This document shows positions 32,160 to 34,366 of a stretch of 48,653 nucleotides of DNA, one piece after another (the first letter of the stretch is position 1; the number at the start of each line of letters is the position of its first letter). Source of the stretch: Acidobacteriota bacterium. GTDB taxonomy: Bacteria > Acidobacteriota > Terriglobia > Acidiferrales > UBA7541. The DNA lies in assembly GCA_003224055.1 (NCBI GenBank), contig QHYE01000039.1, forward strand, positions 1 to 48,653, given 5' to 3'. Below the pieces are notes generated by a model. That model ran no database searches and was not told the origin of the DNA. It worked only from the letters and a program-made list of their open reading frames with translations. Made by a program: the position numbers and the translations under genes.

Positions 32160-33683
32160 ATGCCGAAATCCACTCCAGAGGCAGCCTCCCTCGCGCCCGA
32201 TGTCCTCGCCAAATACGAGCCCGTCATCGGCCTGGAAGTCCACGTCCAACTCCTCACCCGCACAAAAATCTTCTGCGGCTGCTCCACGCGCTTCGGCGAT
32301 CCGCCCAACACCAACGTCTGCCCCGTGTGTCTCGGCCTCCCTGGCACTCTCCCCGTCCTCAATAAGCGCGCCGTCGAAATGGCCATGCGTGCCTCGCTCG
32401 CCCTGAATTGCACCGTCCACGACCACTCGCGCTTCGCCCGCAAAAATTATTTCTATCCCGACCTGCCCAAGGGCTACCAAATCTCCCAATACGAATTGCC
32501 CCTCGCCACCAACGGCCATCTCGAGATCGAAGTCGCCGGCCTGCCCGCCGCGGCGGGCGCAAGAAAACGTATCGGCATCACGCGCCTCCATCTCGAGGAA
32601 GACGCCGCGAAAAATCTTCACGAGGGCTTCTCGCAATCCGCCACCAAGGCCTACATTGACTACAACCGCTGCGGCACTCCGCTCAGCGAAATCGTTTCCG
32701 ACCCGGACATGCGCACGCCCGACGAGGCCTACGCCTACCTCACCACCCTCCGCCAAATCCTCCTCTATACCGGCGTCAGCGACGTCAACATGGAGGAAGG
32801 CTCGCTCCGCTGTGACGCCAACGTCAGCGTCCGCCTCCGCGGCGCGAAAGAATTCGGAACCAAAGTCGAAGTAAAAAATCTCAACTCTTTTCGCTATCTC
32901 CAAAAAGCCCTCGAATTCGAAATCGAGCGCCACATCGCCGTCCTCGAATCCGGCGGCCGCATCGCGCAGGAAACCCGCCTCTGGAATCAAGCCGAAGGCC
33001 ACACCGTCTCCATGCGTTCGAAAGAAAAGGCCCACGACTACCGCTATTTCCCCGAGCCGGATCTTCTGCCCGTGCACATCAGCTCCGCCTGGCGCGAAGA
33101 AGCCCGCCGCACCCTCCCCGAATTGCCCGAAGCCAAGCGCGCCCGCTTCGTCACCACCTACGGCATCACGCCCGATATCGCCGAAGTCCTCACAGACACT
33201 CAGAATCTGGCGAATTACTTTGAGGCCTCAGCCGGCTCAGCTGATCCCAAGAGAGTAGCCAATGTCATAGCTAATTGGGTCCTTGCTAGAGTTAAGGATA
33301 AAGACATTACAATCGATAAGTGGGCTGAACTTGTGCCACCATCGCAGATCGCGCGAATAGTTGCACTTCAGTCCACAGAAATATCTACTGGCGGAATAAC
33401 TATTTCAACTTCAACCGCAAGGGAAGTTTTGGGAAAGATGGCAGAGACCGGACGCACGGCAGATGAAATTGTCGCTGCCGAGGGTCTCGCACAAATCGAT
33501 GACGTCTCTGCCATCGAGCAAGCCGCCCGAGAAGTCATCGCAAAAAACCCAGACAATGTCGCCAAGTTCAAATCCGGCAACGAAGGCGTCTTCAAATTCT
33601 TCGTCGGCCAGGTCATGAAAGCCACCCACGGCCAGGCCAACCCCCAGGCCGTCAACGACATCCTGCGCAAACTGCTTTCCTAA
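32160..33683 (+). CDS. gatB: Aspartyl/glutamyl-tRNA(Asn/Gln) amidotransferase subunit B
   Basis: 507 residues, slightly longer than the usual 475-490. GatB forms the kinase/transamidase half of GatCAB and converts Glu-tRNA(Gln) or Asp-tRNA(Asn) to the amide form. Visible signatures are YEPVIGLEVHVQLLT, the zinc-site pair CGC plus CPVCLGLPG, ARKNYFYPDLPKGYQISQ, and the C-terminal YqeY-like tail (FKFFVGQVMKATHGQANPQAV). Subunits A and C are not in the window. Most of the gene uses C/G-ending codons, but codons around 33196-33490 do not (see separate entry). The reading frame is intact throughout. Confidence 0.96.
   Translation: MPKSTPEAASLAPDVLAKYEPVIGLEVHVQLLTRTKIFCGCSTRFGDPPNTNVCPVCLGLPGTLPVLNKRAVEMAMRASLALNCTVHDHSRFARKNYFYPDLPKGYQISQYELPLATNGHLEIEVAGLPAAAGARKRIGITRLHLEEDAAKNLHEGFSQSATKAYIDYNRCGTPLSEIVSDPDMRTPDEAYAYLTTLRQILLYTGVSDVNMEEGSLRCDANVSVRLRGAKEFGTKVEVKNLNSFRYLQKALEFEIERHIAVLESGGRIAQETRLWNQAEGHTVSMRSKEKAHDYRYFPEPDLLPVHISSAWREEARRTLPELPEAKRARFVTTYGITPDIAEVLTDTQNLANYFEASAGSADPKRVANVIANWVLARVKDKDITIDKWAELVPPSQIARIVALQSTEISTGGITISTSTAREVLGKMAETGRTADEIVAAEGLAQIDDVSAIEQAAREVIAKNPDNVAKFKSGNEGVFKFFVGQVMKATHGQANPQAVNDILRKLLS
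33196..33490 (+). other. Compositionally foreign patch inside gatB
   Basis: Within about 295 bp the codons switch to ATA, AGA, AGG, ACT, GCT and CTT, with many A/T third positions. The flanking gatB sequence is strongly C/G-ending. The protein still reads as GatB tail domain (KRVANVIANWVLARVKDKD to TADEIVAAEGLA). Gene conversion from another lineage, or an assembly chimera, would explain it. Confidence 0.6.
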
Positions 33684-33729: not shown

Positions 33730-33773
33730 GTAGGGGCACGATACATCGTGCCCCGCGGGCGCGGCCCGCGCCC
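33730..33773. repeat. Intergenic palindromic repeats, GTAGG type, copy 3
   Basis: GTA is followed by a 9-bp-arm palindrome (GGGGCACGA...TCGTGCCCC, 33733-33754), then directly by a second GC-only palindrome (GGGCGCG...CGCGCCC). The two hairpins are adjacent. Confidence 0.6.
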
Positions 33774-33860: not shown

Positions 33861-33904
33861 CTCAAGTTTGATAAGCTTCCAATACCTAACGCGAAGGAAA
33901 CTCC

Positions 33905-34366
33905 ATGCTAAAACCCGGCGCCAAAGCTCCCACCTTCTGCCTCAAATCCGACGACGACACGCTTGTCTCCTTGACTGATTTCAAGGGCCATCGCGTCCTC
34001 CTCTTCTTCTACCCCAAGGCCAACACCTCCGGTTGAACCATCGAAGCGTCCGAGTTTCGCGACGCAAAGAAGGAATTCGACAAACTCAACGTGGCCATCC
34101 TCGGCATGAGCGCCGATCCCGTCAAAGCCCAGGCCGCCTTCAAAGCCAAGTACCGGATCAATTTTCCGTTGCTCTGCGACCCGACTCACAAGACCATCGC
34201 AAAATTCGGCGCCTGGCAGAAAAAACAATTCATGGGCCGCACCTTCATGGGCATCGTCCGCAGCTCCTTCCTCATCGGCAAAACCGGCAAAATCGAAGAA
34301 GTCTGGCCCCTCGTCAAAGCCAAAGGCCATCCCGCCGCCGTCCTCCAGCGCATCTCGCAAATATGA
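33905..34366 (+). CDS. BCP/PrxQ-type peroxiredoxin with UGA-encoded (selenocysteine) active site
   Basis: Reading from ATG 33905 (AAGGA upstream) gives LKPGAKAPTFCLKSDDDT, VLLFFYPKANTSG, then TGA at 34034-34036, and continues in the same frame as TIEASEFRDAKKEFDKL through FPLLCDPTHKTIAKFGAW to a normal stop at 34366. Both halves fit the BCP/PrxQ family, and total length (153 residues) is normal. The TGA is codon 44, exactly where the family has the peroxidatic cysteine (FYPKA-x-T-x-G-C-T). The second cysteine five residues later is Ser here. A hairpin that fits bacterial SECIS rules follows. I therefore read it as a selenoprotein reducing peroxides in the cytoplasm. A nonsense mutation in a pseudogene is the alternative; sel genes are not in this window. 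Confidence 0.75.
34046..34065 (+). promoter_or_regulatory. Bacterial SECIS-like hairpin
   Basis: GCGTC (34046-34050) pairs with GACGC (34061-34065). Inside, CG pairs with CG around an AGTTT apical loop, leaving one bulged C. The loop begins 16 nt after the UGA and has G in its second position, as in bacterial selenocysteine insertion elements. The lower stem is short and no folding calculation was made. Confidence 0.55.

Follow-up and report, generated by a model that had tools for sequence, protein, structure and literature searches.

A probable selenocysteine-containing PrxQ peroxiredoxin at a gatB-prxQ locus of Acidobacteriota

An in-frame UGA at the catalytic codon of a gene raises a simple question: does it end translation, or is it read as selenocysteine (Sec)? 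We met this question in a PrxQ/BCP peroxiredoxin gene of an acidobacterium, within a stretch of 48,653 nucleotides (contig QHYE01000039.1) that was analysed as a whole and is called the window here. A preliminary description of this DNA had proposed a likely selenoprotein. We find that UGA44 is very probably read as Sec at the catalytic site. Sec PrxQ occurs across an entire family of bacteria, in which Sec and Cys have switched at one gene position.

The Sec peroxiredoxin of Bcp type (COG1225, TxxU motif) is a selenoprotein family known at least since 2005. In the accessible parts of the sources, it counts 43 members among the known families of the Sargasso Sea data (PMC1088965) and is listed as COG1225 (Bcp) with TxxU (PMC9312934); the tables accessible in the latter and in PMC13188914 cite Sohling 2001 for the family. 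The accessible text of PMC1794560 (2006) counts 12 Sec peroxiredoxins, with five events from Cys to Sec and none in the other direction, and assigns four selenoproteins of three families to Acidobacteria; that of PMC12013277 lists three known selenoproteins for a single Acidobacteriota genome. The window protein has in common with the family the UGA at the peroxidatic codon of a TxxU motif, here TSGU. It differs by its spread through a family of Acidobacteriota, and the loss of the resolving Cys is a subject that the accessible parts of PMC1088965 and PMC9312934 do not treat. Our literature search, made mostly without subscription papers, returned no description of an acidobacterial Sec/Cys PrxQ series among the matches listed, and the evolutionary series at the gatB-prxQ locus may be new.

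An in-frame UGA at the active site of PrxQ

The frame holds 153 codons and a stop, and the TGA at codon 44 is the only stop inside it, just as the preliminary description had read it (Table 1). Ordinary gene calling would probably shorten or miss such a gene. Written with C for U, the translation matches AhpC-TSA (E 1.2e-35) and scores 164.3 bits with PRK09437, the NCBIfam equivalog of PrxQ, for a cut-off of 140. Solved PrxQ proteins align on both sides of the UGA and place their peroxidatic Cys at codon 44, which bears out two more of the early claims, i.e. that the TGA sits at the catalytic Cys and that similarity continues beyond it. An AlphaFold model made from a 25-row alignment has a mean pLDDT of 96.7 and a pTM of 0.91. 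The folds nearest to it are BCP/PrxQ: the BCP of an ACKA-BCP model (9a4d), the Xanthomonas PrxQ and a Burkholderia relative. Xanthomonas campestris PrxQ and the other BCP/PrxQ structures (5iph, whose title names a C84S mutant, 5iow and 9a4d) reach TM values of 0.91-0.95 over the model and share the PxxxTxxC context. Yet, their peroxidatic residue is Cys where the window protein would have Sec, and the latter has no Cys at 49 or 80. A search for a sigma-70 promoter found none.

Table 1. Positions of the prxQ gene, its sequence elements and its neighbour in the window
Feature	Position	Strand	Basis
gatB, conserved upstream neighbour of prxQ	32160..33683	+	Pfam
AAGGAA, Shine-Dalgarno-like, 5 nt 5' of the ATG	33894..33899	+	direct sequence reading
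PrxQ/BCP peroxiredoxin gene, probably for a Sec protein (153 aa, UGA44 as Sec)	33905..34366	+	profiles, AlphaFold model, folds
UGA codon 44, peroxidatic Cys position (P37xxxT41xxU44)	34034..34036	+	TGA in 65/91 homologues read
SECIS-type hairpin, 8 bp, one bulged C	34046..34065	+	folding, pairing, codon use
Codon 49 (TCC, Ser), CX4C PrxQ resolving-Cys position; also in the 5' hairpin arm	34049..34051	+	
Apical loop GUU, first loop base G	34054..34056	+	folding
Codon 80 (Lys), aligned with Cys84 of Xanthomonas PrxQ	34142..34144	+	alignment
Codon 119 (Arg)	34259..34261	+	invariant in 91/91 homologues read

All 151 genomes have a match to the family. Codons were read in 91 homologues from 89 genomes, taken from 30 loci and 60 further stretches (the top of the list, two 2-TGA rows and a few others), and 62 of the 151 genomes lie outside this codon-level reading. 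At codon 44, the homologues have either TGA (65) or TGC/TGT (26), and those with TGA extend down to 44% identity. The recurrence of TGA at the same codon is more than chance would give. Around it, P37 is kept in 59 of the 65 Sec forms and in all 26 Cys forms, and T41 and R119 do not vary among the 91 homologues. We take Arg119 to be the active-site Arg of peroxiredoxins.

The part of the gene 3' of the UGA evolves under constraint. There, dN/dS is 0.13-0.29 in comparisons with five of six Sec relatives, the sixth being saturated. In codons 55-152, which follow the hairpin described below, 31-79% of synonymous sites but only 7-14% of amino-acid-changing sites differ from the six relatives. This purifying selection argues against a dead 3' part.

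A SECIS-type hairpin and the machinery for selenocysteine

The UGA is followed by a hairpin of 20 nt, GCGUCCGA-GUU-UCG-C-GACGC. The preliminary description had rightly seen a hairpin here with a G in its loop, but it had counted 16 nt of spacing, and the 5' arm in fact begins after a gap of 9 nt. Counted from the UGA, the first 40 nt fold at -12.8 kcal/mol (z -2.5), with 3 of 200 shuffles equally good; for longer stretches, z is -2.1 at 50 nt (6 of 200 shuffles) and -1.8 at 60 nt (11 of 200). Standard pairs fill 93.9% of the hairpin pair cells in 59 distinct Sec rows, against 8.9-48.5% when the pairing is slid, and 58.7% of these cells are paired in the 26 Cys rows. Compensatory change is thin: both sides have changed in two of the eight pairs, in three cells. 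Of 500 column shuffles, 5 had at least as many pairs as observed and 92 at least as many further pair types, so that the latter number is no better than shuffling gives.

Codon use gives a stronger sign of the hairpin than compensatory change does. Across the family's 57 Sec genes, one residue is kept at 85% or more in 56 degenerate columns, and exactly five of these columns use one codon only. All five lie within the hairpin: Ala48 (GCG), Ser49 (TCC), Glu50 (GAG), Phe51 (TTT) and Asp53 (GAC). At Arg52, where the third codon base forms the bulge, CGC, CGT and CGG all occur. The family's 20 Cys forms encode Ala48, Glu50, Phe51 and Asp53 with two or three codons each, and their only conserved column with a single codon is 69. 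Column 49 is not comparable between the two groups because the residues differ; the commonest residue there in Cys forms is Ile, which is ATC in seven of seven cases. The hairpin codons are thus under a constraint at the RNA level that the Cys forms do not show.

Individual folds vary. Over 50 nt, eight Sec forms with the consensus or nearly so (L030, L043, L141, L155, L167, L171, L185 and L190) have another minimum-energy fold. Among more distant Sec forms, L168 has changed two hairpin pairs on both sides and kept the pairing, L173 and L179 could by eye pair in a shifted register, and L169, L182, L184, L186 and L191 fit the hairpin poorly. A search of the stretch against Rfam matched no family. 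Our own hairpin model, R1, gives 57.3 bits on a Sec copy (that of L177) and, in the same scan, at most 26.6 bits on Cys forms (L142 of genus g5; L170; E 6.5e-5), with four of the five Cys forms of g5 scoring 17.8-26.6. These scores may reflect shared coding sequence rather than a remnant of a SECIS element, as suggested by L170, which is a Cys-Cys form of another family. Elsewhere in the genome, the next best match of R1 begins on a TGA (L197, 20.3 bits, E 0.23). We rejected it as a further gene with a hairpin: a second TGA lies 15 codons upstream in frame, and the region looks non-coding by eye.

The preliminary description had advised a search of the genome for selA, selB, selC and selD, and the machinery is there. 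In this assembly (4.53 Mb, 136 contigs, 95.6% complete), selA (560 bits), selD (353 bits, without internal stop) and selB (GTPase, domain 2, SelB-wing_2 and wing_3) all score over their curated cut-offs. There is one tRNA-Sec over the Rfam cut-off, called by ARAGORN as tRNA-SeC with anticodon TCA. A second likely selenoprotein gene, for the alpha subunit of a formate dehydrogenase, is present as a fragment (L195, G000:C101:30280-30825) with an in-frame TGA, reading ...VUHGPTVSSLGPTFGRGAMTN. It is the N-terminal part, cut by the contig end, and its 116 bits are below the family cut-off. A search of the genome for SelW-like proteins (PF10262) found none.

How else might the UGA be explained? Without Sec decoding it would end translation, and prxQ would be a pseudogene in which a nonsense mutation fell by chance on the catalytic codon. 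Such a pseudogene is at odds with the same TGA in so many homologues of such distant identity, with the purifying selection downstream and with the full Sec machinery of the genome. Close relatives with a plain Cys codon and further disabling changes in this copy had been named as what would betray a pseudogene. Instead, the 22 best-ranked homologues (L024-L045) all have TGA, and the frame has no further disabling change. We give this explanation practically no credence. UGA encodes Trp in some bacterial lineages, and one might suppose that it is read here as Trp or another amino acid, or else that only a purposeful truncated product is made. But prxQ itself terminates in TGA (34364-34366), the tRNA-Sec of the genome carries the anticodon TCA, all 26 homologues lacking TGA have Cys44, and the codons of the hairpin are frozen in the UGA forms, which leaves this idea very improbable. 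We are highly confident in a functional Sec gene, in which Sec44, directed by SelB and the hairpin, would replace the peroxidatic Cys of a 1-Sec peroxiredoxin resolved by an external thiol.

Resolving cysteines and the proposed mechanism

Many BCP/PrxQ members, though not all, have a resolving Cys five residues after the peroxidatic one or in helix 3, and it is not required. Cys84 of the Xanthomonas PrxQ is presumably such an alternative resolving Cys. The window protein has Ser at the first position, as had been noticed from the start, and Lys80 at the second. Residue 49 of the 65 Sec forms is S in 54, T in three, N in three, H in two, I in two and R in one, and never C; of the 26 Cys forms, 11 have C here and the other 15 have I, V, N or G. 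No Sec form among the 65 has a Cys at column 80 either. At the level of sequence, the early assignment to a 1-Sec type therefore stands. With no Cys at either known resolving position, an external thiol is most likely, and the protein is probably a 1-Sec peroxiredoxin reduced in this way.

The steps might then run as follows. SelB, bound to the hairpin, would bring Sec-tRNA(Sec) to UGA44, so that Sec takes the place of the peroxidatic Cys in a BCP/PrxQ fold. The selenolate would reduce H2O2 or organic hydroperoxides and become a selenenic acid. The external thiol that would resolve it could be of low molecular weight or belong to thioredoxin or a glutaredoxin-like protein. The selenoprotein could also resolve Sec44 internally, by Cys91 or Cys12, both present in the window protein, or in relatives by a Cys at column 68, which 25 of the 65 Sec forms have. 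Yet, Cys12 occurs in only 4 and Cys91 in only 5 of the 65, the window protein itself has Met68, and in 35 of the 65, codon 44 aside, the aligned part is free of Cys. We thus regard internal resolution as unlikely.

Two other peroxiredoxins invite comparison. PrxU of Eubacterium acidaminophilum is likewise a Sec peroxiredoxin, but it belongs to another subfamily by profile: the window protein scores 36 bits with NF040737 (peroxi_PrxU), far from the cut-off of 270. We take NF040737 here to be the profile of the E. acidaminophilum enzyme. AhpE of Mycobacterium tuberculosis, called 1-Cys in the title of 1xxu, is likely similar to the window protein in its use of an external thiol; it differs in having Cys, not Sec, and is 27% identical.

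The Cys at column 68 is also found in 14 of the 15 Cys forms without resolving Cys and in fewer than 10% of the 11 Cys-Cys forms. It might serve as a replacement thiol, or the pattern may reflect kinship alone. Among the 71 homologues L062-L132, none of them labelled Acidobacteria, two have TGA44: L069, from a Desulfobacterales MAG, has U44 with Q49, and L071, from an Anaeromyxobacter MAG (Myxococcota), has U44 and keeps C49. Because of L071, we rejected a general rule by which the resolving Cys would always be lost from Sec forms.

Sec and Cys forms at the gatB-prxQ locus

A conserved Sec peroxiredoxin in Acidobacteriota is of interest in itself. More surprising is that Sec and Cys forms share one gatB-prxQ locus and that, in genus g5, the Cys forms lack the resolving Cys. 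In all 38 loci (29 distinct ones and nine duplicate contigs), gatB, sometimes partial, lies upstream of prxQ on the same strand, and it is also upstream in 11 of 11 further stretches, among them Cys forms of g1, g4, g5 and g9. This synteny implies that the two forms are orthologues at a shared position. One stretch (L177, G081:C20:55532-56957) has tandem PrxQ genes, one with Cys44 and Asn49, the other with TGA44 and Ser49.

In a tree computed with columns 44 and 49 masked, Cys forms branch off at several points amid the Sec forms. A single clade of all 20 Cys forms of the family is rejected (p 1.1e-7), and so is one of the g5 forms with the g1 Cys-Cys forms (p 0.012), whereas a clade of the five g1 Cys-Cys forms alone is not (p 0.139). 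Parsimony gives five Sec-to-Cys and six Cys-to-Sec changes, on one tree that is weak in places, and these figures are indicative only. Exact counts of switches are not firm because 40 of the 95 inner branches are without a mark of good support.

Cys forms and an apparent loss of Sec decoding coincide in one genus. Five of the six g5 genomes (71-97% complete) show neither selA nor tRNA-Sec; only G039, the sixth, has both. Each of the five g5 prxQ genes read, one of them from G039, combines Cys44 with I or N at 49. A Sec form was read in 64 genomes, and 63 of them show selA, tRNA-Sec or both, the exception being G025 (85% complete), which shows neither. Both are missing in 4 of 25 genomes in which only Cys forms were read, compared with 1 of 64 Sec-form genomes (Fisher p 0.02, uncorrected for kinship), and all four belong to g5. 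The other 21 Cys-form genomes keep selA and tRNA-Sec, so that Cys forms are not generally tied to the loss of Sec decoding.

One might speculate that Sec arose together with the loss of the resolving Cys and that several reversions to Cys followed later, which in g5, and perhaps in g4 and g9, would have left a 1-Cys PrxQ. We hold the chances of this history to be about even. If it is true, the loss of the resolving Cys was a one-way door and the locus is a natural series of Sec/Cys exchange, contrary to the 2006 tally of five Cys-to-Sec and no Sec-to-Cys events in the accessible text of PMC1794560. Sec and Cys orthologues with and without a resolving Cys at one locus offer a test of what Sec buys a peroxiredoxin.

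Between gatB and prxQ lies a near-perfect palindrome, GTAGGGGCACGATACATCGTGCCCC (33730-33754). Its core pattern has no match in a reversed control and five in the genome, at four sites, two of the matches being one site on both strands; the palindrome is a small interspersed repeat.
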